From assembly GCA_022824225.1 (NCBI GenBank), contig JAJEAH010000017.1, forward strand, positions 1 to 64,000: DNA of 64,000 nucleotides, given 5' to 3'. Position numbers and translations under genes: made by a program. Shown here one piece after another: positions 2,972 through 20,406 of the stretch (the stretch's first letter is position 1; each line of letters opens with the position of its first letter). The stretch comes from Chloroflexota bacterium. GTDB lineage: Bacteria > Chloroflexota > UBA11872 > VXOZ01. The notes beneath the pieces are model-generated. The model was given only the letters and a program-made list of their open reading frames with translations. It did no database searches and was not told where the DNA came from.

Positions 2972-3304
2972 AGTCGCCGCCAATGGATGTACAGCCTTGC
3001 GCGCGTACCATCCCCCGCGCGCACAATCCCATTGTAGCGAAATATCTCACGGCGATTGGTGGGGAGAGGCATGTCGTGCAATGGAATTGCGGTAAGGTGA
3101 CGTACGCGATCGAATTCCCGGCTGTCGGCGCCCTGGATTCCCAGCGGCACTTGGCGTGTGGCTGCCAAGTGTGTAAAGTAGGTATGTGGCACGCATTCCG
3201 GCCCAGTGTGGAGCGCTACGAGGGGGCGTGTCATTCTTTTTTCGTTATGAACCAGCGGGCACGCAATGGTGAACCGCGCGGATACGCAGGAGATGGACGG
3301 GCGC
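2972..3304. other. Divergent intergenic region
   Basis: The 333 bases between the minus-strand pur operon and plus-strand bL25 must hold both promoters. On the minus strand a TACAAT hexamer (complement of 3031-3036) is a possible -10, without a good -35. No RNA gene, terminator or repeat stands out. Confidence 0.4.
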
Positions 3305-4696: not shown

Positions 4697-5448
4697 CGGG
4701 GAGGCTCCCAAACTCCTCGGGAGTCCCCCTTCTTCCAGAATACGAGGAAGTAGGAATGATTCTTCCTGGCGTGGACTTGCCTGATAGTGCGGCTGACGCC
4801 AGGCCGGTTGTTTCTGACGACAACGAATAGGTCTTCTGGGATGAATCCTAGCCTACTGTACGACTCCATGATTTCTACATGAGTGAAGCGTTGACGATTG
4901 GAACACACTTCGTCCTGGCACTTGACGATTAGGACACCACGCTCGCGCAGTACTCTATGGGCTTCTACGCCCGCTGCCACATACAGTTCCAGTACTGCCT
5001 CATGGTATTTGCTTGTTGTGTTATTGCCTGTTTCATTGTTCCGATAGTACTGCTCGAACGCGCGTTGGCTCTGATGGGCTGTGCCGCCTGGAGAATGCAT
5101 GTACGGCGGATCGAGAACCACACAATCGATCTCACCATCGTCATAAGGCAAGTCGCGACAATCTACTCCGGTCTGGATGTCAGTGCCGAGAACTCTGTAT
5201 TGGTGTTCAGGTATGTTGCGCCAAAACACCCCATCACCGTAGGTCACATCTGCAATCAAGCTGGACTGCGGGACATAGAGCGACAGAATCTGCGGGAAGA
5301 CGCTTTCGTTTCCTCCCACATGCGCGCTGAGAACGAGCTCGTTTGTCGGCAATCCGTTTTGGACGATCCGAGCGCGTTTCTTGGTTTGTGTAGGCTGATA
5401 AGAAGCATTTGGCATGGCGGTTTCGTTCCCGGTTTGCTCCTCGTGCAT
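4693..5448 (-). CDS. Site-specific DNA methyltransferase (amino-MTase, DPPY)
   Basis: A 251-residue S-adenosylmethionine-dependent amino-methyltransferase of the N6_N4_Mtase type. An AdoMet-binding motif I-like segment, ADVTYGDGVFW, lies near residue 66. The catalytic motif IV DPPY lies near residue 113, followed by a HRVLRERGVLIVK segment and a C-terminal strand with FLVFWKK. A DPPY motif points to N6-adenine or N4-cytosine methylation. It overlaps the downstream nuclease by 4 bases, so expression is coupled with the methylase first. A second in-frame ATG at 5415 is a possible shorter start. It would protect host DNA from the partner nuclease. Confidence 0.9.
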   Translation of the reverse strand: MHEEQTGNETAMPNASYQPTQTKKRARIVQNGLPTNELVLSAHVGGNESVFPQILSLYVPQSSLIADVTYGDGVFWRNIPEHQYRVLGTDIQTGVDCRDLPYDDGEIDCVVLDPPYMHSPGGTAHQSQRAFEQYYRNNETGNNTTSKYHEAVLELYVAAGVEAHRVLRERGVLIVKCQDEVCSNRQRFTHVEIMESYSRLGFIPEDLFVVVRNNRPGVSRTIRQVHARKNHSYFLVFWKKGDSRGVWEPPR

Positions 5449-5755: not shown

Positions 5756-6481
5756 CTACGGCCCGGCGCCGCAGGCTTCCAGGTGGCGGCGGATGACCTT
5801 TTCCGCCCGTTGGCGGATGGCGCGCACGGCTTGCGGGCTCACGCCCATGCGCGCGGCGATGTCCACCACCCGGCGGTCCTGCCAGTAGATGGCGTAGAGC
5901 ACGGTTTTTTGCTTGGGCGTAAGCAGTTGCAGCCCCTGCTCCAGTTCGGCGTGGACCGCCGGTTCCGTGGAACCGGGTTCCCAGTCAGTCGTGGGATTGC
6001 CCGCGCGCAAACGTTTTTCGGCCAGGTAGGCCGTGATCTCGTCGCTGAGCGACTGGTTATGGGCGGGATCGGGCGGCGCGATGCGTCGGGAGGTGCGGCC
6101 AAAATTATGCACGCGCCACTTGAGCATGGTGCACATGTAGGCTTCGAAGTTGCCGTTGCGCCGGTAGTCGTACTCGTAGAGCAACTCCAGAAAGAGCCGC
6201 TGCACTTCCTGGCGGGCGTCTTCGGCCTCCGACGGGCGGAAGCTCCGCCGCAGACGCCGCATCTGGCGTTCCATGGGCAGGCGCAAGCGGTCCATGAGCA
6301 GCATCTGGGCGGTGGTGTTGCCCTGCTTTGCCGCCTGTACCGTGACGAACAACTCGTCAGGCAGAGTGTCCCCGCGGCGCGGTTGCGCGTCCGGGGTCGC
6401 TTTCGTATCTGATGGTGCGGCCGCCACCGGCGCAGATTTCGCCACCGGCGTCGCATTCATCAAGGGCATTGTCGCTGCCAT
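5756..6481 (-). CDS. Small sigma-70 family RNA polymerase sigma factor
   Basis: A 241-residue sigma factor with regions 2 and 4 only. A low-complexity Ala/Pro/Thr leader (residues 1-38) precedes region 2 (about 48-118, containing EDARQEVQRLFLELLYEYD and a WRVHNFGR segment). A linker follows, then region 4 (about 178-237) with the helix-turn-helix RRVVDIAARMGVSPQAVRAI. The overall plan resembles ECF or phage-type sigma factors. The start has a good upstream GGAGAGGAAAG. No anti-sigma gene is adjacent. It sits beside LexA and the phage-derived module, so a role in that module's transcription is plausible but inferred from position only. Confidence 0.88.
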   Translation of the reverse strand: MAATMPLMNATPVAKSAPVAAAPSDTKATPDAQPRRGDTLPDELFVTVQAAKQGNTTAQMLLMDRLRLPMERQMRRLRRSFRPSEAEDARQEVQRLFLELLYEYDYRRNGNFEAYMCTMLKWRVHNFGRTSRRIAPPDPAHNQSLSDEITAYLAEKRLRAGNPTTDWEPGSTEPAVHAELEQGLQLLTPKQKTVLYAIYWQDRRVVDIAARMGVSPQAVRAIRQRAEKVIRRHLEACGAGP

Positions 6482-6797
6482 TGCTCTTTCCTCTCCTGCG
6501 TTAGCTGGAACGGTTTCCGGTATGTAACGTTAGGATGTTCTTGCGTCGGATCATTTTCACGTGGGGGCGCTCGCGGTAGAGGCTCGCGGTAACTGTAGGG
6601 GCGCTTCGCGAAGCGCCCCTACAGCGAGCGCCCCTATTCCCCATAGCCGTATCGGGTTGATACGGGCGAGGAGCGCCCCTACGGCGAGCGCCCCTACGTG
6701 AGGCGTCCCTACCGCCTTACGCTCGGCGTCCTTTCCGTTCATCCTGCGACAGGCCTGTCCTGAGCCCGTCGCAGCGCTCAGGACGAACGGCGCTTCC
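6482..6797. repeat. Intergenic palindromic repeats (GTAGGGGCGC family)
   Basis: The gap between lexA and the sigma gene holds a perfect 32-bp palindrome at 6593-6624 (left half CTGTAGGGGCGCTTCG), then shorter GAGCGCCCCTACGGC-type pieces to about 6712 and an inverted CTGCGACAGG/CCTGTCCTGAGC piece near 6746-6790. These are REP-like. They could also act as a lexA terminator, although no T-run follows. Confidence 0.85.
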
Positions 6798-7421
6798 TCA
6801 GGCGTAGACGCGGATTACGCCGACCACCTTGCCGAGAATAGTGATGTTGTTGCCGGGGAGCGTGGGGTAATACGGGTTGGCGGGCACCAGGAACACCTGG
6901 CCGCCGTCGCGCTGGAGTTGCTTGAGCGTAGCGGTGCCGTCCTCGCGCAGGGCCGCCACCATCTCGCCGTTCTCGGCGTCGGGTTGGGGGCGAATGAGCA
7001 CGTGGTCGCCGTCGCATACGCAGGCATCCACCATGCTGTCACCCTGTACGCGCAGCGCGTAGACGTCCGGATGGCGCGCCAAGACGCCATCCACGGAGAG
7101 CCAGTCTTCCACGGCCTCCACCGCCTCCACGCCGGTACCGGCGGCAATCGTGCCGCGCACAGGCACGCGCGCCACGCCCATACCCTCCAGCATTTGCACC
7201 TGGGGCGTCAGCTCATAGGTGCCCCAGGCCGTGCGGCGCAGATGCCCCTTGGTTTCCAAGCGCTTCAGGTGGTGGTGCGCCGCCGCCGGTGAGCGCGCGC
7301 CGATGCAGCGGGCGATTTCTTCCAGGGTGGGCCACCGCCCTTCCTGCTGTACGCGCGTGAGAAACGCCAGCACCTGCCGCTGCTTCGTGGTAAGGGGCTT
7401 ACCCGTAAGGGCTTCTTTCAT
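6798..7421 (-). CDS. lexA: LexA-type SOS repressor (S24 self-cleaving)
   Basis: A 207-residue repressor-protease. An N-terminal winged helix (residues 10-65, TTKQRQVLAFL then IARCIGARSPAAAHHHLKRL) binds DNA. The Ala94-Gly95 bond lies in the GTIAAGTG cleavage segment. Catalytic Ser129 sits in VQGDSMVDA and Lys167 in DGTATLKQL. All elements for RecA-stimulated autocleavage are present and the length is typical. GAGAGGAAGG precedes the ATG. Whether this is the cell's only LexA or a dedicated prophage repressor cannot be decided here; it lies between a sigma gene and the phage module and diverges from the latter. Confidence 0.95.
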   Translation of the reverse strand: MKEALTGKPLTTKQRQVLAFLTRVQQEGRWPTLEEIARCIGARSPAAAHHHLKRLETKGHLRRTAWGTYELTPQVQMLEGMGVARVPVRGTIAAGTGVEAVEAVEDWLSVDGVLARHPDVYALRVQGDSMVDACVCDGDHVLIRPQPDAENGEMVAALREDGTATLKQLQRDGGQVFLVPANPYYPTLPGNNITILGKVVGVIRVYA

Positions 7422-8206
7422 GTGCGCCTTCCTCTCTGTCGCTCGACGCTGCTACGCGGTGAATCTGTCAGTGGCTCTTTGCGGCGCGGGAGCTGTTGCC
7501 CGTGCATGCCGCCCGGATAGAGAATCCGTTCGTCAAAAGCAATCCGTCGGTTTGTGCCTTCTCTGCGTGTAGGGTGCGTGCGCAACCTGCGAAAACCGTC
7601 TGCGCTGGGCGCTGTGTCGGTCTCAGTACAGGCCTGTTCACCCTTCGACAGGCTCAGGGCGAACGGGATGCTAGTTGTGTTTAGCACGTACGTTCACCCT
7701 TCGACTGTGCTCAGGGCGAACGGAGTGGGGCGCTACCTGTGCTCAGGGCGAACGGGCGCTACTTGTGCTTGGGGCGAACGGGCGCTACCTGTGCTCAGCC
7801 TGTCTGTTCGCCCTCTGTCCGTTCACCTTTCGATCCTGCGACAGGCTCAGGACGAACGGGCGGGAGCCTACCAGTGCTCGGCACGTTTGTTCACCCTCCG
7901 GCTGTTCACCCTTCGACTGTGCTCAGGGCGAACGGGATGCTAGCTGTGCTCAGCACGTACGTTCACCCTTCGACAGGCTCAGGGCGAACGGGGTGCTAGT
8001 TGTGCTCAGCACGTCCGTTCACCCTTCGACTGTGCTCAGGGCGAACGGATTGGGCTGCCCCGCCTGTTCTCATGCTGTTTGCCCTCTCTCAAGCTATACG
8101 GGCGAACGGTAAGTCTGGCGTCTGCCAAGTCAGCGGCGCGTGCGCCAAGTCAGCGGCGCGTCTGCCAATCTTCCCGTGTTCGTGTGCCCTGCGCTGTGTT
8201 TTCCCT
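7422..8206. repeat. Dispersed TTCGACAGGCTCAGGGCGAACGG repeat cluster
   Basis: This 785-bp stretch has no believable gene. About eight full or partial copies of the CCTTCGAC(A/T)G(G/T)CTCAGGGC element lie at 7639-7668, 7692-7722, 7739-7755, 7766-7781, 7826-7860, 7909-7935, 7962-7990 and 8017-8048, linked by GTGCTCAGCACGT-type spacers. A separate 20-bp direct repeat (core GCCAAGTCAGCGGCGCG) occurs at 8121-8140 and 8141-8160, with a partial third copy at 8161-8168. Confidence 0.88.
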
Positions 8207-8280
8207 AGTATAGTAAATACTTTGTAAAATTACAACCCCTTTCACCCCTCATTTTTTATATTATTTTTGAATATAACTCT
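8207..8280 (+). promoter_or_regulatory. AT-rich control region of the phage-derived module
   Basis: An abrupt AT-rich segment in otherwise GC-rich DNA, immediately before the plus-strand module. It holds two adjacent inverted repeats: AGTAT-AGTAA-ATACT (8207-8221) and TTGTA-AAAT-TACAA (8222-8235). A T/A-rich tract with TATATT- and TATAAC-like hexamers follows (8245-8277). The arrangement looks like two operators next to a promoter; which regulator binds is not known. Confidence 0.5.
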
Positions 8281-8859
8281 ATGCAGCCCCAAAACACGGG
8301 GAAACGCACAGCGCAGTCCCGTCCGTACGCTACCGCCATGCCCGCCGGCAGCCGCGCTCTGCGGCAGGGCAAACGGACCGCGCCGTGCCGCACGAAACTC
8401 CGGCAAGCCGCAGAACGCCGGCGGGACAGGGCACAGAACGCCAAACCTTCATTTAAAGAACACAGCGCCGACACGACAAAGGAACACACCCACGTGACCC
8501 GCAAACGCCAACACCCCAGGAGCCTCTACGCCGACCTCTTCGCCGAACACGAACTGGCGGCCCTGGAACGCACCGCCGACAATCCGCTGCTCCAGGACGA
8601 GATTGGACTGCTGCGCATGCTCATCCGCCGCATCGCCGGCCAGATGCTTACGGCTGAAGACGATGAGCGCGCGCCGGCGGACAAGATCAAGGCGGTCAAG
8701 GACCTGACCGACATCCTGCTCAATGCCTTGAAAGCCCGCGCGCAACTCTCGCCCCGGGCGGAAGACAACCTGACCGAGGCCATGCGCCAGGTGATCGCCG
8801 AAATCGAGACGCTGGAACAAACGGAAGAGAAAGCGCAGGAACGCCACCATGCTGAATGA
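8281..8859 (+). CDS. Small-terminase-like or phage-associated DNA-packaging protein
   Basis: First gene of the plus-strand phage-derived module. The conserved-looking part is the C-terminal 120 residues: SLYADLFAEHELAAL, an amphipathic helical stretch, and LKDLTDILLNAL-like helices ending in a Glu-rich coil. Its position just before the large terminase suggests a small terminase subunit, but no motif proves it. The start is uncertain: ATG 8281 has no ribosome site, whereas GTG 8494 follows AAAGGA with good spacing and would remove 71 basic, low-complexity residues. Confidence 0.6.
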   Translation: MQPQNTGKRTAQSRPYATAMPAGSRALRQGKRTAPCRTKLRQAAERRRDRAQNAKPSFKEHSADTTKEHTHVTRKRQHPRSLYADLFAEHELAALERTADNPLLQDEIGLLRMLIRRIAGQMLTAEDDERAPADKIKAVKDLTDILLNALKARAQLSPRAEDNLTEAMRQVIAEIETLEQTEEKAQERHHAE

Positions 8860-9091
8860 GACCGGAACCCACGCACCGCCCCGGCGGGACGCGCGCTATC
8901 ACGAACTGGCAGACGACCTGGACCGGCACGGCTGCGCGTTCGGCCAGGTGACCCGCGAACTGGCCGAGAATACGCGGGAAGACTACGCCCGGCTGGAAGC
9001 CAAGATCAACATCATCCTCATCGGCATCTTCGCGTCGCCGTTTGCCGCGGCTTTTCTGAACGGCATTCTGCGCAGCGTGCCAGGGCAGTAG
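8849..9091 (+). CDS. Small one-TM protein (holin-like or hub-accessory)
   Basis: 80 residues, overlapping the previous gene by 11 bases. An N-terminal charged helical part (residues 10-50, ELADDLDRHGCAFGQVTREL) is followed by a single hydrophobic span INIILIGIFASPFAAAFLNG (53-72). AGGA precedes the ATG at 8849. The plan of soluble coil plus C-terminal membrane anchor resembles XhlA-type phage lysis accessories, but lysis genes rarely sit before the terminase, so function is unassigned. Confidence 0.6.
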   Translation: MLNETGTHAPPRRDARYHELADDLDRHGCAFGQVTRELAENTREDYARLEAKINIILIGIFASPFAAAFLNGILRSVPGQ

Positions 9092-9482
9092 AGGCGCACA
9101 CAGACATCTATCGAAGGCAAACGTAGTAGATGCAGACCAGGGCACATGCCCGGATTTCACCGTAGCGCGGGGGCTTGTCCCCCGCCTCCCGACAGTTGTG
9201 GGAGGGGAAGTTTGGGCAGAAGGGGGGAGAAGATGGGTTCCCGCGTGCGCGGGAATGACGGACTGTAGGCCGCGGGAATGACGGATTTGCGGCGATGGCC
9301 GCAAGACGCAGATGGGATGGATTCCCGCGTGCGCGGGAATGACGGGCAGTAGACCGCAGGAGTGACGGAGCGTGGGCCATGGGAATCGCGGAGTGTAGGC
9401 CATTGAGATAGGGCGGCGGCTTTTCACCCGCCTACCGGGAATATGCCACGAAGAGTGCTTTTCAGTTGCTGAGGAAAAACCC
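9092..9482. repeat. Intergenic REP repeats (TTCCCGCG-N-CGCGGGAATGACGG)
   Basis: 391 bases without a gene. Two copies of the palindrome ATTCCCGCGTGCGCGGGAAT followed by GACGG lie at 9237-9261 and 9321-9345, with degenerate GGGAATGACGGA pieces between and after. A GTAGCGCGGGGGCTTGTCCCC element lies near 9163-9185. The end carries GAGGA (9471-9475), the ribosome site of the terminase gene. Confidence 0.85.
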
Positions 9483-11054
9483 TTGCAGACGAACACGGCA
9501 GATACGCACGCGCAGGATGCGCAACGGAAGTTGGGCGCGCAGAGCGCCGCGCATCCTGCGCCGGCCCCGGACGGAGACGACCGGGACACACTGGCCCGCG
9601 CCTTCTTCCGCTATACGCTCAACGACATCGCGCACTTTTCGCGCGTGCTGGTGGGGCGGACCTTGCGCTCGTATCAATTGGCGGTGGCGCGGCCGGTGTT
9701 GGCCAGCGTGCGGCGGCGGCAGGGGGCGGTCTTTACCGTAGAAATGGCGAGGCAGATGGGCAAGAACGAGCTTTCGGCGCATCTGGAAGCCTACTTGCTG
9801 TACCGCTATCAGCGGCGCGGCGGCGCCATCGTCAAGTGCGCTCCCACGCTCAGCCCCCAGACCCTCATCTCCCGCCTGCGTCTGGAATCGATCCTGGACC
9901 GACCCTGGCTCGCGCCGTACTGGCAGCGCGCCCACGGGAACATGGTCACGGTCGGCAGCGCGCGGGTCATGTTCCTGTCGGCGCACGAGCAGGCCAACGT
10001 GGTGGGCGCGACCGCCGACCTGCTGCTGGAAGTGGACGAAGCCCAGGACGTGGACGAGGAGAAGTTTGCCAAAGAGTTCCTGCCCATGGCGGCGGCGCAA
10101 AACGCCACCATCGTGCTCTACGGCACGCCATGGACGAAGGATACGCTCCTCGCCAAGTACAAGGCGCTCAACCTCGCTCACGAAGAGAAAACCGGCGAGC
10201 GGCGGCACTTTTCCTATCCCTGGCAGGTGGGAGCGCGGGAGAATCCGCGTTACGGCGCGGCGGTGCGGGCGCAGATCCGCCAGCGGGGGGAGGACGACTT
10301 GGTCATACGAACGCAGTATCGGTTGGAAGAGGTGGATGATGCCGCCGGCTTCTTTCCACCGCCGCTGCAAGCCGCCCTGCAGGGCGCGCACCCGCGGCAG
10401 CAACAACCGCAGGCGGATGCACACTACGTGGCCGCGGTGGACGTGGCCGGGGAGGAGTCCGCTGCGGCACGGGCGCAGGGCGGAAACTCGCGGCGGGATA
10501 GCACCGTGGTCTTAATCGGCGAGCGCGTCCGGCGGCGCGACCCGGCGCTTGGTTTTGCCCTGCCCGCGGTTGACGTGGTGCAGGCCTACCAGTGGACGGG
10601 CCTCGCCACCACTGAGCAATACGCCCGCCTGGTGCGCTTGCTGGGCGAGGAATGGCGCGTGCAGCAGGCCGTGATCGACGCCACCGGCATTGGCGACGCG
10701 TTGGCGCGCTTCCTGCAGGCCCGCCTGGGCGCGGACCGCATCGAGCCGTTTACGTTTACGGCGCAGTCCAAGAGCGCCCTGGGCTACGACCTGCGGACGC
10801 TGGCCGCCAGCGGGCGCCTGCAACTCTGGGCCGACGACGGCTCCGCCGAATACCGGGAGTGCTGGCGGCAGGTGCGCCGCTGCCAATTGACCTTGCATCC
10901 GGGCAACCGCATCGGGTTCCACGTGCCGGTAAGCCAGGGCCACGACGACTACATTGCGGCCTTGGCCATGCTGGCGCGCACGGTGGAGGGAGCCGCGCCG
11001 CCGGCGGCGTCGGTGGCGCTCCCGCCGCGTGAGACGCAGACGGAGGGGTATTGA
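9483..11054 (+). CDS. terL: Phage terminase large subunit (ATPase/nuclease)
   Basis: Motor that packages DNA into a prohead and cuts it. The 523-residue product has a variant Walker A, MARQMGKNE (residues 88-96), and Walker B LLLEVDEAQD (180-189). A coupling-type YGTPW segment lies near residue 218. The C-terminal RNase H-like nuclease has acidic residues in VAAVDVAG (near 316), VIDATGIGD (near 397) and GHDDYIAAL (near 487). All catalytic positions look intact. The start is TTG, with GAGGA 7 bases upstream. It anchors the identification of the module as phage-derived. Confidence 0.93.
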   Translation: MQTNTADTHAQDAQRKLGAQSAAHPAPAPDGDDRDTLARAFFRYTLNDIAHFSRVLVGRTLRSYQLAVARPVLASVRRRQGAVFTVEMARQMGKNELSAHLEAYLLYRYQRRGGAIVKCAPTLSPQTLISRLRLESILDRPWLAPYWQRAHGNMVTVGSARVMFLSAHEQANVVGATADLLLEVDEAQDVDEEKFAKEFLPMAAAQNATIVLYGTPWTKDTLLAKYKALNLAHEEKTGERRHFSYPWQVGARENPRYGAAVRAQIRQRGEDDLVIRTQYRLEEVDDAAGFFPPPLQAALQGAHPRQQQPQADAHYVAAVDVAGEESAAARAQGGNSRRDSTVVLIGERVRRRDPALGFALPAVDVVQAYQWTGLATTEQYARLVRLLGEEWRVQQAVIDATGIGDALARFLQARLGADRIEPFTFTAQSKSALGYDLRTLAASGRLQLWADDGSAEYRECWRQVRRCQLTLHPGNRIGFHVPVSQGHDDYIAALAMLARTVEGAAPPAASVALPPRETQTEGY

Positions 11055-11386
11055 TGATGGGCGTCGCGAATCGGGACGAGGACGCAGGTTACAGACCTGC
11101 GCTACCAGACCGTCACTCCGGCGGAGGCCGGAGTCCAGGGTGAAACGGCGGGAGCGGCGTACTGGGCAGGTGTCGTGGGCGTTGGGTGAAGTGCTGAAGA
11201 GAAGATGGATTCCCGTTTTCACGGGAATGACGGACAGGGCGGGAATGGCGGACAGGGCTGAAGCGGCGGACGAGGCGGGAATGAAGGATAGGGCGGGAAT
11301 GGTGGACAGGGCGGGAATGGCGGACAAGGTTGGTATAGCGAGCACGTGCGACGTATTTAGATGAACCAGATCAGAAAGCGAGCGCA
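11055..11386. repeat. Intergenic REP copy followed by 18-bp minisatellite
   Basis: Between terL and the portal gene lie a GCAGGTTACAGACCTGC element (11071-11087) and the REP palindrome ATTCCCGTTTTCACGGGAAT (11209-11228). From 11223 to 11330 there are six tandem copies of an 18-bp unit, GGGAATGACGGACAGGGC, which begins inside the REP tail. The repeat would read as a GM-x-DRA hexapeptide, but nothing suggests it is translated. Confidence 0.85.
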
Positions 11387-12625
11387 ATGGCAGTACAGAC
11401 GACCGGTTGGTGGCAGCGGCTGGGTGAGCGCCTCTTCGGCGACGTGATCCAGGCGCGGGTGCAGGAAGCGGTGGCCGCGGAAGACATCGGCTACCGGCAG
11501 GTATCCGGCCCGGCGGAGACCCGCGACGACCCGCTCTGGGACCACCAGCGGCTGCTGCGGGAGGTCTACGAGGCGTACGTCACCAATCCGTTGGCCTACG
11601 CCGTCATCGACGTGCAGGCCAACTTCGTCTTGGGCGGCGGCGTGCGCATCGCCTGCGCCAACGCCGCCGTGCAAGACGTGGCGGACGCCTTTTGGCGGCA
11701 TCCGGACAACAGCATGGATACCCGCATCTACAGCCTCTATACAGAACTCGCCCTCTACGGCGAGCAGTTCGTGCGCATCTTCACCGATCCCCTCACCGGC
11801 GACGTCCGGCTGCGCCAGCTCGATCCGCTCCTCATCGATCAGATCGAGACCGCGCCGGAGGACATCGAGCAGGTGCTGCGCTATCGGGTGAAGGGCGTTG
11901 GGCAGGAGCCGGGCTACTGGGTGGCGGGCGGCGAGATGGAGCACTTCACCATCAACCGGGTGTCGAACGCCTTGCGGGGCCGCAGCGACCTGGCGCCGTT
12001 GCTGCCGTGGCTCAAGCGTTACCGGGACTGGCTGGTGGACCGCGCCCGCATCAACCGCCTGAAGGGCAGCTTCATCTACGACGTGACCGTGCGCGGCGCG
12101 ACCCGCAACGACCTGCTCGCCAAGATGGCGGCCTACGCCCAACCGCCGGCCCCGGGCACGGTGGTCTTCCACAACGAAGCGGAAGAATGGCAGCCGGTGC
12201 AGCCGTCCATCGGCGCCGACGACGTGGCCGCCGACGGCCGCGCGCTGAAGCTCATGATCGCGGCGGGGGCGGGTCTGCCGGAGCACTATTTGGCCGAAGG
12301 CGGCCACGTGAACCGGGCCACGGCGGCCGAAATGGGGCTGCCCACGCTGCGGCGGTTCCAGCGCCGCCAGGAGTTGTTTGGGCGCTACCTACGCCGTTTG
12401 GTGGCGCGAGCGATCCAGGCCCGGCAGGACGCCGGCATGTTGGCGCCGGACGTAGACACCACGTTGCGCGTTGTCTTCCAGGAACTGCAACCGGACGTAG
12501 CCCACGTGGCGGGACCCCACGCCGAGTCGTTCGCACGGTCGTTGCAACTCGCCAAAGCCGAGGGTTGGCTGGAAACGGAAGACGCCGCGCGCCTCTTCCG
12601 CCGCTTCCTGGCCGAGGAGGAGTAA
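11387..12625 (+). CDS. Phage portal protein
   Basis: The dodecameric portal forms the DNA gateway at one capsid vertex. The 412-residue length is normal for the family. Portal hallmarks include the N-terminal YEAYVTNPLAYAVIDVQANFVLGGGVRI segment (about residues 61-88, judged by order and composition), YGEQFVRIF near 125, the QLDPLLIDQIE segment near 146, and the C-terminal QELFGRYLRRLVARAI helix near 330. It follows terL in the usual order of a head module. The start follows GAAAGCGAGCGC, a weak ribosome site. Confidence 0.9.
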   Translation: MAVQTTGWWQRLGERLFGDVIQARVQEAVAAEDIGYRQVSGPAETRDDPLWDHQRLLREVYEAYVTNPLAYAVIDVQANFVLGGGVRIACANAAVQDVADAFWRHPDNSMDTRIYSLYTELALYGEQFVRIFTDPLTGDVRLRQLDPLLIDQIETAPEDIEQVLRYRVKGVGQEPGYWVAGGEMEHFTINRVSNALRGRSDLAPLLPWLKRYRDWLVDRARINRLKGSFIYDVTVRGATRNDLLAKMAAYAQPPAPGTVVFHNEAEEWQPVQPSIGADDVAADGRALKLMIAAGAGLPEHYLAEGGHVNRATAAEMGLPTLRRFQRRQELFGRYLRRLVARAIQARQDAGMLAPDVDTTLRVVFQELQPDVAHVAGPHAESFARSLQLAKAEGWLETEDAARLFRRFLAEEE

Positions 12626-12696
12626 GGGAAGTGCGTTTGCAACCCACGACGCGCGCACTGCTGCTTGCGCTCGCGCCGTACGCAAACCGTAGTCTC

Positions 12697-13278
12697 TCAC
12701 TCCGGGTCGTAGTCCAGGAGTTCGCTCAGTTGCTCTTTGGTCATGCCCGCGGCGCGGAGCAGCACCAGGACGACTTCGGGTTTCAGGGCGTCGGACTGGG
12801 AAAGCGGCGCGCCGGTGGCCTGGCCGATACAGGGGTGGATAGTGGCCGTTTCCGCCACCACCACCGTCGGCACGTCCTCGCCCTCGCCGAGATCGGCGGC
12901 GATCCAGGCCGGCAGCAGCCTTTCGAGCTGTGCCAGGGCCGCGGGGGCGGTATCGCCCCGGGCCACGCGATCGTGGAGAGGAATCGCCACGGCGCATTCC
13001 TGCTCCTCGCCGCGCCAGGTCACGGCCGGCAACCGGTACGCGGTTGCGCCGACGTCAACGGTGAGGGTGTGCACGGCAAGCGTGTCAGTAGGCGGGTCTT
13101 CCTGGGCCAGGTGCATCTCCGCGGCCATCGTCAGGTCGCCGATGACCTCGTCGACTGTGTCGCCCTGCACCACGCAACCGGGCAACGCGGGCAAGTCGCC
13201 CCAATAGCCGCCGGCCTGCGACGGCGCGACCACCACGGTGAGCGCGGCAGTGGGAACGGAAGATTCTCGTGTATTCAT
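12697..13278 (-). CDS. HicB-like antitoxin-family protein, antisense within the module
   Basis: A 193-residue protein whose first half has the HicB signature: GGYWGDLPALPGCVVQGDT followed by VDEVIGDLTMAAEMHL (residues 22-57). The second half, ECAVAIPLHDRVARGDTAPAALAQLERLLPAW, looks like a degenerate second HicB domain. The end, PEVVLVLLRAAGMTKEQLSELL, could be a helix-turn-helix remnant. ATG 13278 is preferred over 13305. No HicA toxin (a small dsRBD-like protein) is adjacent. It lies on the opposite strand between portal and capsid genes, so it is probably an insertion. Confidence 0.72.
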   Translation of the reverse strand: MNTRESSVPTAALTVVVAPSQAGGYWGDLPALPGCVVQGDTVDEVIGDLTMAAEMHLAQEDPPTDTLAVHTLTVDVGATAYRLPAVTWRGEEQECAVAIPLHDRVARGDTAPAALAQLERLLPAWIAADLGEGEDVPTVVVAETATIHPCIGQATGAPLSQSDALKPEVVLVLLRAAGMTKEQLSELLDYDPE

Positions 13279-13361
13279 GCACGCCATTGTACCAAGTGGC
13301 CGCATGGCGCGGTATCCACACAGTGACAGACCACTTTGAGACTTGAGGGGAGGAAGCGCAT

Positions 13362-15356
13362 TTGAAATCGGAAGAACTCACGGTGCTCGTGCCGTTGCAG
13401 GAGGCGCAAGTCGACGCGCCGCAGCGCGACGTGGCGGTAACCGTGCTGCGCGCGGGACTCTCGCGCAACGGCCGGCACTTCACGCGCCAGGCGCTGCGGG
13501 ACGTAGCCGCGCAACTCGACGGTTTGCACGCCTTTGCCGACCATCCGGCGTCCCCGGATCCGGGCAGCCGCCAGCCGCGCAGCGTGCGCGACGTGGTGGG
13601 CTTCTACCGTGAGCCCCGGCTGGAAGGCGACCGGGTGCGCGCCACGCTCCACATCTTCGCCAGCGCCGACTGGCTGTGGAGTCTGGTGCAAGAGGCCGTA
13701 GCCATGGGACGTCCCGACGTGCTGGGTCTGTCAATAGACTCGCTGGCAGCGGTGCGCGCCCGGCAGCAGCACGGCAAGCCCACCCACGTGGTGGAGCGCA
13801 TTCCGGTGCTCCGTTCGTGCGACGTGGTCACACGGGCCGCGGCCGGCGGCGCTTTCGAGCACGTTCTGGCCGCCGACGATGCCACTAGATCAAACAAGGA
13901 GAAGCTCTTGGAAACGGAACAGCTTACCAATCCTGTGCAGGACAGCCCCGACTCCGGGCAAAACGCGGCGAACGAAACCGAAATTGAGGAGGTAGCCATG
14001 GGCGACACCGCCGGTACAACCAATGAATCGCGCCTCGCGGAGGCCGAGGCCAAGCTCGCGTGCATGACCGCGCTGCACGAGCGGCTCGACACCGTAGCCT
14101 TGCCCGCCGCCATCAAGCGCAAACTGCGCCGCCGCTTCGCGGGCGAGACGTTTGCCGCTGAGGTCTTGGAACAGGCCGTGCAGGAGGAAGTGGAGACCGT
14201 GCGCGCGTTGACCGGTCCGGCCAACGGCGTGCAGGGCCTGGGAGCGGAAAAGGCGCGGATCAGCCTGGGCGCCGCGGGCGCCGATCGGGGTCTGGCCGCC
14301 GCCGAGGCCGGATTGGCGCGGCTGCTGGGCGTGCGCGACGTGGCTTCAGATTCGCCGGTTCCGGCGTGGTCCAGCATCCGCGAGGCCTACGTGCAGATCA
14401 CGGGCGACACCGAGGTGCGGGGCGCCATGAACCCGGAACTCTCCCTGGTGCGCGAGGCCAACGAGGTCACCACGAGCGTGCTCAATCACGCGCTCGCCAA
14501 CGCCATTACGAAGCGTTTGGTGCAGGACTACGCCGCGCAGCCCCAGGACTGGAAGAAGTTCTGCGCAATTCGCAGTATCCGCGACTACAAGCCCCAGTAC
14601 CGTGTGCTCTTGCACGACTTCGGCGCGCTGGACTCCGTCAATGAGAACGCCGCGTACACGAACCTCGCGTGGGACGACACGCGGGAGACCTACACGCCCG
14701 CCAAGCGGGGCAATCTGGTGGTGGTTACGCGCGAGGCGATCCTGAACGACGACTTGGAAGCCGTGCGCCGCATTCCCGCCAAGCTGGCCGTCGCCGCCGC
14801 CACGACCATCAACGAATTCGTGTACGGCCTCTTTACCGACAATCCGCAGCTTGCCGATAGTTCGACCGTGTTCGACGCCGATAGCCAGACGACGCACCAG
14901 AACCGGGGAACGGACGCGCTGGCGGCCTCGGCGCTGCAAGCGGCCATCACGGCCATGATGAAGCAGACCAACAGCGCCGGCAAGCGCTTGGGCATCCGGC
15001 CCCGGTACCTGCTCCTGCCGCCGGATCTCTACTGGACGGCGGTGACGTTGCTCAACAGCACACTGCTGCCCGGCAGCCAGAACAACGACGCCAATCCCCT
15101 GCAAGGCATGCTGGAGCCCATCGTGGTGCCGCAGTTCACCGACGCCAAGGACTACTATCTCATGGCCGATCCGGCCCAGATCGAGTGCTTGGAGGTGGGC
15201 TTCATCAACGGCCAGGAGACGCCGGAACTGCTGGTGCAGGACAACCCGACCGCGGGCTCGGTCTTCACCAACGACGCCATCAGCTACAAGGTGCGCTGGG
15301 AGTTCGGCGGCGGCTGGCTGGACTACCGGGGCGCGTACTGGGCGGAGGTGGCCTAG
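13362..15356 (+). CDS. Prohead protease - scaffold - major capsid polyprotein
   Basis: One 664-residue frame with three parts. Residues 1-170 look like an assemblin-type maturation protease, with His61 (FADHP), Ser124 (LGLSIDSLA) and a RSCDVVTRAA strand (151-160). Residues 183-300 are Glu/Ala-rich, scaffold-like helices. Residues 330-664 resemble the gpT-like/HK97-fold major head subunit (WSSIREAYVQITGDTEV; NEFVYGLFTDNP; YLMADPAQIECLEVGF). The start is TTG, with GGGGAGGA 7 bases upstream. Strong internal ribosome sites precede in-frame TTG 13908 and ATG 13998, so shorter scaffold-capsid forms may be made. Catalytic residues are proposed from pattern only. Confidence 0.85.
   Translation: MKSEELTVLVPLQEAQVDAPQRDVAVTVLRAGLSRNGRHFTRQALRDVAAQLDGLHAFADHPASPDPGSRQPRSVRDVVGFYREPRLEGDRVRATLHIFASADWLWSLVQEAVAMGRPDVLGLSIDSLAAVRARQQHGKPTHVVERIPVLRSCDVVTRAAAGGAFEHVLAADDATRSNKEKLLETEQLTNPVQDSPDSGQNAANETEIEEVAMGDTAGTTNESRLAEAEAKLACMTALHERLDTVALPAAIKRKLRRRFAGETFAAEVLEQAVQEEVETVRALTGPANGVQGLGAEKARISLGAAGADRGLAAAEAGLARLLGVRDVASDSPVPAWSSIREAYVQITGDTEVRGAMNPELSLVREANEVTTSVLNHALANAITKRLVQDYAAQPQDWKKFCAIRSIRDYKPQYRVLLHDFGALDSVNENAAYTNLAWDDTRETYTPAKRGNLVVVTREAILNDDLEAVRRIPAKLAVAAATTINEFVYGLFTDNPQLADSSTVFDADSQTTHQNRGTDALAASALQAAITAMMKQTNSAGKRLGIRPRYLLLPPDLYWTAVTLLNSTLLPGSQNNDANPLQGMLEPIVVPQFTDAKDYYLMADPAQIECLEVGFINGQETPELLVQDNPTAGSVFTNDAISYKVRWEFGGGWLDYRGAYWAEVA
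13896..13910 (+). promoter_or_regulatory. Internal ribosome binding site with in-frame TTG
   Basis: AAGGAG (13896-13901) lies 6 bases before an in-frame TTG (13908-13910, residue 183 of the polyprotein), at the boundary between protease and scaffold-like parts. Confidence 0.5.
13986..14000 (+). promoter_or_regulatory. Internal ribosome binding site with in-frame ATG
   Basis: GAGGAGG (13986-13992) lies 5 bases before in-frame ATG 13998 (residue 213). A start here would give a 452-residue scaffold-capsid protein without the protease. Confidence 0.55.
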
Positions 15357-15809
15357 CGCGTTTACGCACCGGGAGAGGGAGACGTCCCCGTAGGGGCACG
15401 ACATGTCGTGCCCTACCCCGCCGGGGAGAAGAACGTGGCACGCCCTACCGCATTCTCCGGTAGCGCAGGTTTGCAACCTGCGCCGCGCCGGGCGCGGCCT
15501 TGCCCTTACTCCCGTACCGTTCCGATACCGCGTAGCAAGGGGTACGGGCAGGCTTTAACCCTTTTCCACCGGAGAGTCCCCGTAGGGGCACGACGCGGGG
15601 CCCGCGCCATGCGCCCCAGCAGTGCGCTTGGCGATGTCCCCGTAGGGGGCACGACATGTCGTGCCCCTACGCCGGTTGCTGTGGCGGAGAACGAGGCGCG
15701 CCCTGTCAACCGCCTGGGAGGGCGCCGCCGCGTGCGGCGGTTGGCCGCTTGAACGGAGCGTCTCGTCGCGCCGAGCATCACGTTTGTAGTTTCCACATGA
15801 GGATTGCCC
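15357..15809. repeat. Intergenic GGGGCACGACATGTCGTGCCCC repeats
   Basis: 453 bases without a gene. Palindromes built on GGCACGACATGTCGTGCC occur at 15390-15416 and 15641-15671, and a half copy lies near 15582-15598. A GGTAGCGCAGGTTTGCAACC element lies at 15461-15480. The same palindrome forms the centre of the MITEs at 28641, 38652 and 38870. Confidence 0.88.
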
Positions 15810-16478
15810 ATGACTCTGAGCCAATTTCGCACATCGCTCCGCCAGGAGTTATTCGACCCGGACGATGACGAGCCGCGTTTCAGCGACGCCATGCTCGACC
15901 ACGCCATCGACCGCGCCGTGACGGAGCTTTCCAGAGCGGCGCCGTGGACCCGCGACGCCACGCTGACCACCAGCGCGGACTCGCGCCTGGTGGACTTGAG
16001 CAGTCTGACGGACGTGTGGAGCGTGGAAGAGGTGGAGTGGCCTACCGGGGGCTACCCGCCCCAGCTCTGCACCTTCATGGTGCTGCCCTCCAGCGAGGGC
16101 GCGCCGGGGTTCGTCTTTCTCCTGACACCGGAAGCGCCCGCCGCTGCGGAGCCGGTGCGGGTGCGTTGGGGCACCAAGCACACGGCGAGCGACCGCCAGT
16201 GGACGGCGCCGGATGCCTACAGCGGCCTGCTGACGACGGGCGCGTACGCCTACGCCTGCCTGGCTTACGCCACGCCCAGATCCGACAACTTTCGCTACAC
16301 CGACGGCCAGCAAGGCGCAGCCGTGGACACGAGCATGGTGAGCGCGGCGTGGTGGGAGAAAGGCAATACGGCGCGGGAGAAGTTCGAGCGCGAGTTGGCG
16401 GCGCTGAAAGAGGAGCGGGCGCAGCAGGTGCGGGGGAGTGTGGCGTGGACGTTGGACGGCGCCGGGACAGGGCGGTAG
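15810..16478 (+). CDS. Phage head-tail adaptor-like protein
   Basis: 222 residues directly after the capsid gene. The N-terminal helices LSQFRTSLRQELFD and RFSDAMLDHAIDRAVTELSRAAPW (residues 3-40) are typical of phage connector or adaptor proteins in this position. A beta-rich middle follows, then a C-terminal helix EKFERELAALKEERAQQVRG. ATG 15810 is chosen (TGAGGA 7 bases upstream) over the TTG at 15804. It would join the portal to the tail; the assignment rests on position and helical pattern. Confidence 0.7.
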   Translation: MTLSQFRTSLRQELFDPDDDEPRFSDAMLDHAIDRAVTELSRAAPWTRDATLTTSADSRLVDLSSLTDVWSVEEVEWPTGGYPPQLCTFMVLPSSEGAPGFVFLLTPEAPAAAEPVRVRWGTKHTASDRQWTAPDAYSGLLTTGAYAYACLAYATPRSDNFRYTDGQQGAAVDTSMVSAAWWEKGNTAREKFERELAALKEERAQQVRGSVAWTLDGAGTGR

Positions 16479-16806
16479 CGCCGAGATGGGAGGTTGCGGC
16501 GGCGCGGCAGTCTTGTTGCCGGGACCTGGCGGAATGGGCGCGCTGCGCCTGGAAGAACCGGCGCGGGGGCGCGATTGCGGCTTCCGTCCCATGCCGGCAG
16601 GACGGACACGCGGCCCCCGCGGCGGCACGCGCTCGGCCCCTGACTTCGCCGCCGTGGCGGGCAGAGGGAACGCGTGGCCCACCGGCCTTGTGCGCGCGGG
16701 AAGACCGCGTGGGCGTACCGGCTGTGGATCGTGCGGCCGCCATCGGCCTTGCGCGCGTGGGAATACCAGAAACCGGAGATGGTCCGAATAGGCGGGAGGA
16801 AGAGAA
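16479..16806. other. Intergenic, nothing recognised
   Basis: 328 bases of very GC-rich sequence between two module genes. Frames through it are Gly/Arg/Pro-rich and lack ribosome sites, so they look noncoding. No palindromic repeat of the window's families was found here. It may be decayed coding sequence. Confidence 0.4.
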
Positions 16807-17181
16807 ATGCTCGATAGGAAGCAAGCCGCGCACGTGCTGGCGAACCGCGCGTGGGTGCGGCGCGGCCGGTTGCGGACGGTCACGCTAATCCAGAAGACCG
16901 GCCAGACCACCACCTACGCCACGGCGCAATGCACGTGGAAAGAAGCGCGCGGCGCGCCGGCGGCGGGAGCGCACCGGGCGGAACGCGCCGAACAGCGCAC
17001 GGCGACCGTGACGGCGGAGTTCGCGCATGACGTGGATTTTTCCGACGCGGTCGCCGTTGCCGACACGCCCGATCAGGCGCAGGTGGCGCGCGTCCGGAAG
17101 TACCGCATCCAGGAACTCGTGCGCCTGGGCTTGACCGGCGCGCCGAACCGTATCGTCGCCACGCTGGTAGAGATTAGGTGA
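16807..17181 (+). CDS. Small phage-module protein, head-completion-like
   Basis: 124 residues in the same direction as its neighbours, ending 6 bases before the next start. It opens with a basic helix (DRKQAAHVLANRAWVRRGRLR) and then alternates short strands, ending RKYRIQELVRLGLTGAPNRIVATLVEIR. The size and place fit a head-closure or tail-terminator protein. No specific family is recognised. GGAGGAAGAGAA precedes the ATG. Confidence 0.65.
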   Translation: MLDRKQAAHVLANRAWVRRGRLRTVTLIQKTGQTTTYATAQCTWKEARGAPAAGAHRAERAEQRTATVTAEFAHDVDFSDAVAVADTPDQAQVARVRKYRIQELVRLGLTGAPNRIVATLVEIR

Positions 17182-17187
17182 GAACAC

Positions 17188-17595
17188 ATGCCAACCGTCG
17201 GTGAAGACTGCTCGGTGATTTTGGATGGCCACGGCTACTTCGTCAAACCCGGTTCTTATCGCGTCGAAACGCCCAGAGTCATCGCCGCGGAACCTGACGC
17301 CGCCGCCGGGCCGGCTGCCGTTGACCTGGGCGCCGGCAAGCAGGTGTGGCACTTTACCGTGCTCGCCTACGCCAATCACCTGAACTACAACGGCACGGTC
17401 AATCCCACCACTGCCGCCACGTACCGCGCGGACCTGCGCGCGACCGCCGCCAAAGCGGAGGCGCTCAGCTTCACGGACCGCATGGGCGCGGAGTACAGCG
17501 TCCATGCGCTGAAGCTGGAAGAACGCATCGCGGCGGCCTCGGGGTATTGGGTGCGGCCGGAATGGGAAATTGCCGTGACCTTGGTGGAAGCGTGA
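17188..17595 (+). CDS. Phage-module beta-rich protein, paralogue A
   Basis: 135 residues related to the next gene. The shared pattern is VG-DC-V near residue 4, a KPGS(Y/F) segment near 21, PR near 30, a GT-N-TTA-(T/Q)-(Y/W)R motif near 70, D-(M/L)G-Y-V near 102, and a final PEWEIAVTLVE or LEWETRVELRE strand. Such short beta proteins after connectors are often tail tube or distal tail proteins, but that is inference. Only 6 bases separate it from the preceding gene. Confidence 0.68.
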   Translation: MPTVGEDCSVILDGHGYFVKPGSYRVETPRVIAAEPDAAAGPAAVDLGAGKQVWHFTVLAYANHLNYNGTVNPTTAATYRADLRATAAKAEALSFTDRMGAEYSVHALKLEERIAAASGYWVRPEWEIAVTLVEA

Positions 17596-17649
17596 ACCCA
17601 CGCGCACCGGCGGCACGGCAACACACGCAAGAGAGGAAATGCGAAGCGC

Positions 17650-18087
17650 ATGGCAACTATCGGGGTGGACTGCAACGTCACGTTGGCCGGCCCTAACGTG
17701 AACGGCGGCGCGGCGGTGGGCTTCTACCTGAAGCCCGGCAGTTTCACCATGACCCAACCGCGGCACGTCCAGGCGCGGCGCACGGCCGCGGGCACAGTTT
17801 CATACGTTGAAAACGGCCTGGGCAAGCGCGAATTCGCGTTCGTCGTCCTCTGCCGCGACAAGATACGCAACCTGGACGGCACGGACAACGCCACCACCGC
17901 GCGGCAATGGCGCGACCGGCTCTGGGAGTTCTACGCCAGTCTCAACGCGGGCCTCACGTTCGTCGATCCCCTGGGCGACAGCTATCGTGTCCGCTTTGCC
18001 GCGTGTGAAGACCGCATCATTCCCTTTGGCAAGGCGAAGCTATGGGTGCTGGAGTGGGAAACGCGCGTCGAATTGCGGGAGGTCTAG
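17650..18087 (+). CDS. Phage-module beta-rich protein, paralogue B
   Basis: 145 residues, a tandem duplicate relative of the preceding gene. It shares GVDCNVTLAG, FYLKPGSFTMTQPRHV, the GTDNATTARQWRDRLWEF segment and FVDPLGDSYRVRF. The duplication must be old, as only the motif skeleton is shared. AGAGG lies about 16 bases before the ATG, so the start is not firmly fixed. Its stop lies 2 bases before the next ATG, with GGGAGG inside its last codons serving the hub gene. Confidence 0.68.
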   Translation: MATIGVDCNVTLAGPNVNGGAAVGFYLKPGSFTMTQPRHVQARRTAAGTVSYVENGLGKREFAFVVLCRDKIRNLDGTDNATTARQWRDRLWEFYASLNAGLTFVDPLGDSYRVRFAACEDRIIPFGKAKLWVLEWETRVELREV

Positions 18088-18089
18088 CC

Positions 18090-20054
18090 ATGGCGCGGCA
18101 ACTGAGCCCGACCCTGGCCGCGGCGGTGGACGGATCTGTCCGCAGGCCGGCTATGCAATTCACGCTGCGGGATGCGGCGCACCACTATGCGCACGTCCGC
18201 AGCGATACGCGCGCGGCAGCCGCCAGCGCCTGTTTCGTGGACACCGGTGGCGCGCTCTGGCGAGTGGACGTTTCCTCGGAACGCGGCATCCGCGCCGCCA
18301 CGGTTTCCTACCAGCGCATTGCGGATACCGAGCAGGCAAGCCAGTGGACGGCGTGGCACGCCCTGCAGACGCGGGTCACCGGCGCGGCGGGCGTCGGCGC
18401 GGGTGTGTTGCCCAACGGCGACGTGATAATAGTCTACGTATCCCTCACCACGGTCTACCGCCGGACCAGCGCCGACGGCGGCGCCACGTGGAGCGATCCG
18501 GAGAGTCTCTGGAACGCCCGGCAGATCGTGCGGGCGCTCTGCTACGGCGGTAACGGCAGCATCTTCCTGGCTACGGACAAGACCGGCGGCGGCGTGACCG
18601 TCTACCGGCTGTATGAATCCGATGGGAGTTGGCAGGCGGACGAATGGCCCCACGGCACATATTCGGCCTGTGGCGGCATTGGCGGCGCCTGGGATGGCTC
18701 AGCCTGGCATCTGGCGCTCTCGCTGTGGGGCGGCGTGGCGGGCACTACCGGCTCCTCGATCATGGGCTGCCGCAGCAACGGCACGAATTGGGGCCCGCTT
18801 ACGACCATTGCGCGGGTGGACGACAGCACGACGCAGCGGGACTTGCTCTATCCCACGGTATCCCACTGGGAGCAGGCCTATCGCGTCGCGTATCTGGAGC
18901 GGGACAACGGCGTGGTCTCCGGCCTCAGTTTCGGGCGCTGGCGCCACGCCGCGGCGCACGCCTGGGGCGTCTTTGCCGACGGCACGCCGGTGGAGCGCGA
19001 ATCCGCGGCTGGCGGCTGGTGGCTGCGCCAGGACGCCCGGCGCTACTGGCTGCTGAACCACGAGACCGCGTACGCCTACGGCGGCTATGCCGCCACAAAC
19101 GCGGACCAGCACCGCGACGTTTCGAGTCGTGTGCTGGACTTCGAATGGGACGAGCGCGCCAACGAGACCGGTTCCGCCCGCCTGTTGCTGGATAATGGCG
19201 ATCTCGCCCTGAGCGGCTGGCTCGGCAAGACACTGCGAGCCGGAACGAGCCTGGACGTGCGCGCGGGCTACGAGACGGCCCAGGGCGTGGAACGGATTTC
19301 CATGGCCGAGTTGATCGTGCAGGACGTCGCGCTCTTGCCGGACCGTACGGCCCGCGTTACGGCTGCTGACGCCAGCGTGCGGACCCGCGGCCGCGTGGCC
19401 CAGACCTGGGCGTATGCCGGCACATCCGTGCGGGCGCTGCTGGCCGAGGCGTGGTACCGCGCCGGCGGCGTGCGCCTGACCGACGACGGCGACGCCCGCT
19501 TTGCCGCCGTCCTGCCCACGTTTGCCCTGCACGCCGGCCAGCCCTGGCGGGCGATGGTGGACCGGCTGACCGCCCTGACCGGTCTCTGGTGGCGGGTGGA
19601 AGCCGATGGCAGTGTGCGCTGCTTCTTTCCCGGGGCGGACCAAACGGCATGGACGTATTCGGGTCAGGAATTCGCCGGGGCCTGGCGGCAGCGCGACAGC
19701 GTAAACCACGTGCTGGTGCAGGGCAAGGGCGTGTTGGGCGAAGCCTGGGACTGGGACGGCGTTCGCGGCCGCGGCGGCGCGCAGACCCTGCTGGTCACGG
19801 ACACGCAACTGACCCAAGCGGCCGCCTGCCAGAGCCGGGCGGCAGCGGTGCTAGCCGGCATCCGCCGCGAAAGCAATGCCTACACCGTGGACGTGCCGTA
19901 CAATCCCGCGCTCCAAGTCGGCGACGTGGTTGATTTTCAAACGGCCGGCCACGCCCACGGCAAGCTGCGCATCGCCGGGATCCGCCACCGCTACACGCCC
20001 CGCGACGCCGAATACACGATGACGTTGCAGTGCGGGGCTGTGGAAGAGGCATAG
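18090..20054 (+). CDS. Phage tail hub-like protein with N-terminal Asp-box region
   Basis: 654 residues. The first ~330 look like beta-propeller blades: an Asp-box SADGGATW lies near residue 132, with further repeated strands such as AWDGSAWHLAL and SFGRWRHAAAHAW. The C-terminal half (about 345-654) has the strand pattern of tail hub/baseplate proteins: SSRVLDFEWDERANETGSARL, AELIVQDVALLPDRTARVTA, LTALTGLWWRVEADGSVRCF, and a final GDVVDFQTAGHAHGKLRIAG segment. ATG 18090 follows GGGAGG. Asp-boxes occur in sialidase-type and carbohydrate-binding propellers, so recognition of a surface glycan is a reasonable inference. Confidence 0.72.
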   Translation: MARQLSPTLAAAVDGSVRRPAMQFTLRDAAHHYAHVRSDTRAAAASACFVDTGGALWRVDVSSERGIRAATVSYQRIADTEQASQWTAWHALQTRVTGAAGVGAGVLPNGDVIIVYVSLTTVYRRTSADGGATWSDPESLWNARQIVRALCYGGNGSIFLATDKTGGGVTVYRLYESDGSWQADEWPHGTYSACGGIGGAWDGSAWHLALSLWGGVAGTTGSSIMGCRSNGTNWGPLTTIARVDDSTTQRDLLYPTVSHWEQAYRVAYLERDNGVVSGLSFGRWRHAAAHAWGVFADGTPVERESAAGGWWLRQDARRYWLLNHETAYAYGGYAATNADQHRDVSSRVLDFEWDERANETGSARLLLDNGDLALSGWLGKTLRAGTSLDVRAGYETAQGVERISMAELIVQDVALLPDRTARVTAADASVRTRGRVAQTWAYAGTSVRALLAEAWYRAGGVRLTDDGDARFAAVLPTFALHAGQPWRAMVDRLTALTGLWWRVEADGSVRCFFPGADQTAWTYSGQEFAGAWRQRDSVNHVLVQGKGVLGEAWDWDGVRGRGGAQTLLVTDTQLTQAAACQSRAAAVLAGIRRESNAYTVDVPYNPALQVGDVVDFQTAGHAHGKLRIAGIRHRYTPRDAEYTMTLQCGAVEEA

Positions 20055-20157
20055 GGGCGTGGGGCACACGGCGTGGCCAACGCATGGGGGACGTGCCCGT
20101 TTGCCGCCGCGTCGATCGGCCGGACATTGCAACCACTCAATACGGAGAACCACACGT

Positions 20158-20406
20158 ATGGCACAGAATATGGACACCACCGGCGTCGCGCCCGGCGCGG
20201 CCCTGAGCGGGATCGTGAAGGCGTTCGACGCGGCGACCTGGCTGGCGGACGTGCAGCTTACCGGCTCATTCCCCACCTTTCTCACCGGCATAGCCGTGAA
20301 TCGCGGCCTCAACGCGCCCGCCGTGACGGTGGGTAGACGCTGCATCGTCGTCTTCAACGACTTGCAGAATCCGGATGACGCAGTGTTGGTCGCCGTCTAC
20401 CAGTGA
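20158..20406 (+). CDS. OB-fold baseplate spike-like small protein
   Basis: 82 residues, last gene of the module. The pattern GIVKAFDAATWLADVQLTGSF (residues 18-38), GIAVNRG, VTVGRRCIVVFND and DDAVLVAVY matches the OB-fold seen in phage gp5/gpV spike N-termini and VgrG-like proteins. ATG 20158 is chosen because GGAG (20144-20147) precedes it. It would sit at the tip of the hub encoded just upstream. No needle or lysozyme domain follows. Confidence 0.68.
   Translation: MAQNMDTTGVAPGAALSGIVKAFDAATWLADVQLTGSFPTFLTGIAVNRGLNAPAVTVGRRCIVVFNDLQNPDDAVLVAVYQ

Follow-up and report, generated by a model that had tools for sequence, protein, structure and literature searches.

A phage-derived module for a probable gene-transfer-agent-like particle in a genus of Chloroflexota

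Within a window of 64,000 nucleotides from a Chloroflexota genome, we found a set of genes that derives from a tailed phage, including its head and packaging genes, and that has probably been domesticated into a host trait encoding a gene-transfer-agent (GTA)-like particle. The initial annotation of this locus had proposed a domesticated particle, either GTA-like or a capsid-only system for DNA packaging. The domestication part is supported by intact loci throughout the genus, by dN/dS ratios, and by the absence of any unlinked tape measure or endolysin of the families tested. The capsid-only part did not hold up, as the portal, neck-like, tube-fold, and hub genes have all been retained. Particle formation, packaging of random DNA, transfer, regulation, and release are predicted from the gene content.

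The assembly that contains the window (in its contig 50) is 3.37 Mb in size and 95% complete, and the source genome has close relatives among Chloroflexota MAGs, including SB0662_bin_44 and RHO3_bin_22. From left to right, the locus encodes a nuclease candidate, a methyltransferase, a sigma factor, and LexA, all on the minus strand, followed by a plus-strand series (coordinates below refer to this strand unless indicated) consisting of a candidate small terminase (TerS), an 80-aa protein with one apparent transmembrane (TM) segment, the large terminase (TerL), the portal, a protease-capsid fusion, an adaptor-like and a neck-like protein, 2 tube-fold proteins, a hub, and a spike. To the left of the module is a gene that we take to be rplY (3266-3970), while genes for KDPG aldolase, UbiD, and a proton pump (Mrp/Nuo-type) are found to its right. 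A lower-GC, 323-aa ORF between purE and the presumed rplY (2012-2983), with a local GC of about 0.57 and a weak codon score, has no assigned function. Searches with Pfam and PHROGs detected no integration or replication gene in the module or directly beside it, in agreement with the initial annotation. The host-type repeats reported in the gaps between the module genes were recovered as well: all are intergenic (about 6593-6791, 7634-8066, 9157-9348, 11100-11324, and 15388-15673), and since about 100 other sites in the genome match them, they belong to the host itself. A 544-aa ORF (11692-13326) and several further long frames were rejected as genes based on codon use; the true portal is the 412-aa frame at 11387-12625.

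The candidate TerS (8494-8859) was identified by its position before TerL and its conservation, with homologs preceding TerL across the phylum (iterated HMM). Its 121-aa product matched no HTH family and contained no recognizable DNA-binding domain. The 80-aa TM protein (8849-9091) is conserved beside TerS and TerL and matched no family; its layout alone is holin-like. TerL (9483-11054; phrog_5909, 7e-9; dN/dS 0.13) has retained its RQMGKN P-loop, DEAQ Walker B, and GHDD nuclease motifs intact. The portal (phrog_10963, 6.5e-40) is 91-93% identical within the genus, with a dN/dS of 0.071. The next plus-strand gene encodes a head maturation protease fused to the major capsid protein (13362-15356; phrog_29592, 8e-76; PF25209, 7e-46), which matches Mu gpT/protease-fusion families in Pfam and PHROGs and has a dN/dS of 0.15. 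His61 and Ser124 of this protein, for which we infer a catalytic role, belong to the columns that do not vary across 10 sequences. Searches of the PDB by sequence with the module proteins gave weak terminase and capsid matches only.

Between the portal and capsid genes, a gene for a HicB-like protein is found on the minus strand (12697-13305; UPF0150, 7.7e-6, and HicB_lk_antitox, 4e-4, both under the curated cut-off). This gene, which is unusual within a structural operon, is kept in 4 genomes of the genus (G000-G003, 73-80% identity). The structural genes had been described as intact and co-oriented; the gene set was confirmed, but the orientation is interrupted by this conserved gene.

An adaptor role is inferred for the product of 15804-16478 from its position and its conservation across classes, with no family match. 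The product of 16807-17181 is a putative neck or head-closure protein, based on its position and on homologs found in the same order in relatives from the class. The 2 genes that follow encode a tail-tube-fold protein (17188-17595) and its paralog (17650-18087; 39% identical in alignment), which has a tail-tube or baseplate-tube fold. The AlphaFold model of the latter (pLDDT 80) was matched by Foldseek to a diffocin baseplate chain (TM 0.70) and to RcGTA chain 6tba_50 (E 6.4e-4), one of the matches to chains of the GTA structures 6tba and 6toa. This corrects the earlier statement that no tail tube of known type is recognizable; the 2 tube-fold proteins were found only by fold. The baseplate hub-like protein (18087-20054; phrog_196 baseplate hub, 7e-6; phrog_1887, 3e-4) has a weakly BNR-like N-terminal part (BNR_2, 0.015), and is present in 5 of the 6 genomes of the genus; the fold could not be read from its AlphaFold model (pLDDT 32). 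The module ends with a small spike-like protein (20158-20406), which matched no family and whose gene directly follows the hub in several distant genomes.

Assembled together, the capsid-protease, portal, TerS/TerL, adaptor, neck, 2 tube-fold rings, hub, and spike would form a particle whose head is small and whose tail is very short. The portal, the self-maturing capsid, and a TerL that keeps its ATPase and nuclease motifs intact are predicted to produce a DNA-filled head, and the tail is likely a stub of stacked rings, made of the 2 tube-fold paralogs, the hub, and the spike, without a ruler. That the genes instead specify a capsid-encoding satellite, or a protein nanocompartment for non-DNA cargo, is extremely unlikely. 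Only a subset of phage genes is present, and HK97-type shells serve as encapsulins (PMC8346489), but a portal, a TerS candidate, and a TerL with intact motifs argue against this, and no integrase, primase, or cargo gene was found.

The initial annotation had also raised the possibility of a split prophage with its tape-measure and lysis cassette elsewhere. Neither a PhageMin_Tail-type tape measure (PF10145) nor an endolysin of the Amidase_2 family (PF01510) was detected, linked or unlinked, in any of the 6 genomes of the genus. Complete clusters in genomes G058 and G095 encode TerS, the TM protein, TerL, portal, adaptor, capsid, hub, spike, amidase, and holin, and contain no tape-measure-sized gene.

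Within the genus, the capsid gene is present as 1 stop-free copy in all 6 genomes, with 81-84% identity. The gene order of the window is repeated in G001 and G003, and on short contigs in G004 and G005; the adaptor of G004 matches in 2 pieces, which may be due to a frameshift in its assembly. In G002, the left half is in order and is followed by an inverted, incomplete right part at the contig end, and no hub was found anywhere in this assembly (98% complete). The module of G003 lies between a block containing what is presumably pyrG and the KDPG-UbiD block. Of these flanks, the KDPG side is kept in G002 and in the window, where the module is inverted, and the pyrG side is kept in G001, which shows that the module had one ancestral place in the genus. 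Median dN/dS values of the module genes ranged from 0.07 (portal) to 0.27 (16807-17181), and those of neighboring host genes with sound orthologs from 0.05 to 0.17, at a synonymous divergence across the genus of about 0.3-1.3. The values for the gene at 17188 in G002 and for the host gene labeled host_ox are paralog comparisons and were set aside. Both predictions made for a domesticated module, intact orthologous loci in close relatives and dN/dS well below 1, were therefore borne out, with G002 as the rearranged, hub-less member of an otherwise intact set at a shared site.

These data bear directly on whether the module is the chromosomal remnant of a degraded (cryptic) prophage, which we regard as very unlikely. 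Such a remnant would fit the lack of any recognized integrase, replication, tape measure, or lysis gene, the host repeats in the gaps, the loss of the hub in G002, and a broken capsid gene in a genome of another family. However, we found no decaying frames, no relaxed selection, and no unshared locus. Because the module is intact, present in single copy, and located at a site shared across the genus, with dN/dS well below 1, it does not appear to be a degraded prophage. Frames have remained intact under purifying selection over the synonymous divergence given above, the putative active-site columns are invariant, and this explanation is largely refuted by dN/dS and conservation.

Across the phylum, 54 of 400 genomes were matched by a capsid profile (E<1e-30) and 114 by a TerL profile, with 53 of the 54 capsid carriers among the latter (Fisher p 1e-32, a value that overstates independence, as the genomes are related). 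Occurrence outside the genus is patchy: families f3 and f4, from the same class as the window, lack the module, while the capsid was found in 23 of 29 genomes of f21, a family with large genomes, nearly always in 1 copy. In the genus of the window, one cluster is known, whereas the genes are spread over several loci in families f5 and f21 and in genomes G055 and G192. Capsid and TerL, while remaining single-copy in such families, are separated by 454 kb in G098 (on a single contig), 396 kb in G161, and 680 kb in G281. In G016, they are found on different contigs, with portal and capsid alone among host genes.

As far as quick trees without bootstrap indicate, capsid and TerL follow taxonomy. 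In the capsid tree, families f1, f2, f5, f21, f38, and f42 each hold together, as do 4 genera of f21 (g46, g30, g128, and g162). Families f1, f2, and f5, which belong to the class of the window, are joined with a support of 99, and a GenBank phage and 3 long viral contigs fall outside on long branches. The TerL tree contains the same class group (support 85), even though its gene often lies apart from that of the capsid. For close pairs from other families, dN/dS was 0.08-0.15. Synteny in the genus, dN/dS, and the grouping by family and genus in the trees all point to vertical inheritance under purifying selection.

A few loci departed from this pattern. The capsid gene of G263, a member of f21, contains several stops (C1:5686170-5688137), while those of sister genomes are intact; we regard this as a recent loss. 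At 4 loci in families f12, f56, and f49 (L166, L169, L170, and L171), the same type of TerL is found near a different, 295-aa capsid of the PF05065 type, which suggests that the capsid was exchanged within this lineage. In families f35, f61, and f44 (L174, L175, and L183), TerS-TerL pairs of this lineage were also found beside a similar gene; in L175, the one scanned, this gene encodes a tubulin-like, CetZ-type protein.

Among GenBank phages, TerL was matched by 2 records at 32% identity, the portal at 31% at most, and the hub by none. A module-type TerL was found on 76 IMG/VR contigs, many of them short cassettes that could be chromosomal. The capsids of 2 IMG/VR contigs (L071 and L076) match that of genome G010 almost exactly, and fall inside f2 in the capsid tree. 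Three of the contigs with this TerL, L189 (23 kb), L210 (48 kb), and L212 (27 kb), encode integrases along with other phage genes, with TerS, portal, adaptor, and a PF05065-type capsid in L189 as well; no tape measure was recognized in the stretch examined of any of them. These are likely living relatives of the ancestor of the module, and show that a lineage of temperate phages exists that are small and apparently lack a tape measure. We had considered that all relatives in the phylum are GTAs, and dropped this idea once the integrase-bearing relatives appeared. These phages share the TerL type, and L210 groups within the TerL clade of f21, so some relatives are not domesticated, and domestication may have occurred more than once.

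The existence of such phages makes it conceivable that one of them integrated repeatedly at or near one site. This is nevertheless improbable, as no integrase is present in the module or its flanks, no viral contig falls in the f1 TerL clade, the module is found in single copy with shared neighbors in 6 of 6 species, and the genes of f5 and f21 are hundreds of kilobases apart or on different contigs.

With domestication as the preferred reading, the question of control arises from the genes on the left. A sigma-70-family factor (5756-6481, minus strand; Sigma70_r4_2, 1.5e-8; phrog_351, 2.6e-11) has a homolog in the distant genome G058 that is likewise divergent from the start of TerS/TerL. An ECF-like sigma factor adjoins TerL in G098 and G161, and may be unrelated to that of the module. 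LexA (6798-7421, minus strand; PF00717 (S24), 2e-26; PF01726 (LexA_DNA_bind), 3.5e-15; dN/dS 0.105) is positioned back to back with the module. It had been described as the module's own repressor, which was not borne out: it is the only LexA match in the whole genome, and hence the cell's own SOS repressor. The AT-rich region reported beside the sigma factor and LexA, upstream of the module, is real and conserved. It consists of a 96-bp candidate promoter/operator (8196-8291), near-identical in 4 genomes of the genus by intergenic alignment, which reads GTATAGTAAATACTTTGTAAAATTACAA followed by an AT tract, while the rest of the LexA-TerS spacer is mostly unalignable repeats. Even with up to 3 mismatches allowed, its 28-bp core (8208-8235) occurs nowhere else in the genome, and no other copy of the element was found there. 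At the recA promoters of the genus, a different element is conserved that does not resemble this one, and no LexA box of the GAAC-N4-GTTC type was found in the LexA-TerS spacer of the window. The SOS control proposed in the initial annotation thus found no support in these comparisons. Median dS was 0.37-0.50 for the sigma factor, LexA, and TerS, versus 0.58-1.3 in the rest of the module, as if there were extra constraint around the promoter.

Further left are genes for a DNA methyltransferase (4693-5448, minus strand; phrog_24333, 7.6e-65; N6_N4_Mtase, 1e-7), conserved in G001-G003, and for a possible nuclease (4193-4711, minus strand; phrog_6927, 1.5e-9) with an FEVK motif that we read by eye as PD-(D/E)XK-like. 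The latter is 79-81% identical beside the methyltransferase in G001 and G002, where both stay next to the sigma factor; in G003, the methyltransferase does so. The two may form a small restriction-modification pair that belongs with the module, or may protect packaged DNA.

Expression of the module would start at the AT-rich element upstream of TerS, probably with the linked sigma factor, and the neighboring LexA of the host may make it responsive to DNA damage. TerL would then package DNA, most likely fragments of the host chromosome, since the module has no replication or integration genes of its own, and particles would leave by lysis, for which no gene was found in the genus. A PBSX-like or bacteriocin-like particle, made for killing or DNA disposal under stress rather than for gene transfer, would likewise keep hub, spike, and tube-fold proteins, and could explain the proximity to LexA; PBSX also packages random 13-kb pieces of host DNA (PMC12946183). 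We consider this unlikely, as no killing determinant was identified, and portal and TerL are among the most constrained genes of the module, so that packaging itself seems to be selected.

More tentatively, at somewhat less than even chances, the module may belong to an ancient, phylum-scale GTA lineage of Chloroflexota that is tape-measure-less, scattered in several families, and equipped with its own sigma factor, and that in this genus was coupled to the sole LexA of the host, with DNA damage triggering the release of host DNA. If Chloroflexota do inherit a packaging particle, GTA-type domestication would be old and widespread beyond Alphaproteobacteria and spirochaetes, and uncultured bacteria would have a means of exchanging genes. 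Such a particle would also explain part of the Chloroflexota "viruses" in viral databases, such as the IMG/VR contigs L071 and L076. With a tape-measure-less layout and extant temperate cousins, the path from phage to host trait is directly testable. No paper on GTAs in Chloroflexota, Ktedonobacter, or Dehalococcoides was found in a literature search that fell short of most subscription journals and all bioRxiv preprints.

Among known systems, the temperate contigs L189, L210, and L212 resemble the module in TerL and, in some, in TerS, portal, adaptor, a tube-fold protein, or a PF05065-type capsid, but their integrases and other phage genes have no counterpart in it. Microcystis phage Mae-JY22 shares the protease-capsid fusion (34%) and the portal (31%); unlike the module, this 41-kb phage has a gene annotated as tape-measure-like and encodes a Gam protein, and TerL and hub are unmatched. 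RcGTA, with whose chains (6tba and 6toa) the tube-fold model aligns, has a tape measure and a longer tail than the stub predicted here, and we know of no linked sigma factor in its regulation. Like the module lineage, Rhodogtaviriformidae have a head-tail cluster that the host retains and passes on vertically, with genes at several loci, but their hosts are Rhodobacterales and not Chloroflexota (PMC9662315).

The 3 formally recognized GTA families come from Alphaproteobacteria and spirochaetes (PMC9662315). GTAs are multi-locus and hard to tell from remnants, and a TerS without a DNA-binding domain is one of their features (PMC11841831). FpGTA of Faecalibacterium has a cluster of about 10 kb (10.5 kb) with such a TerS, TerL, portal, and capsid, while a second locus at a distance of 125 kb contains more structural genes and the lysis genes; its particles have no visible tails and were shown by experiment to package about 9 kb of host DNA (PMC12946183). 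FpGTA is the probable functional analog of the module, which is itself known from its genes. FpGTA belongs to a different phylum, and the capsid-fused protease and linked sigma factor are features of the module.
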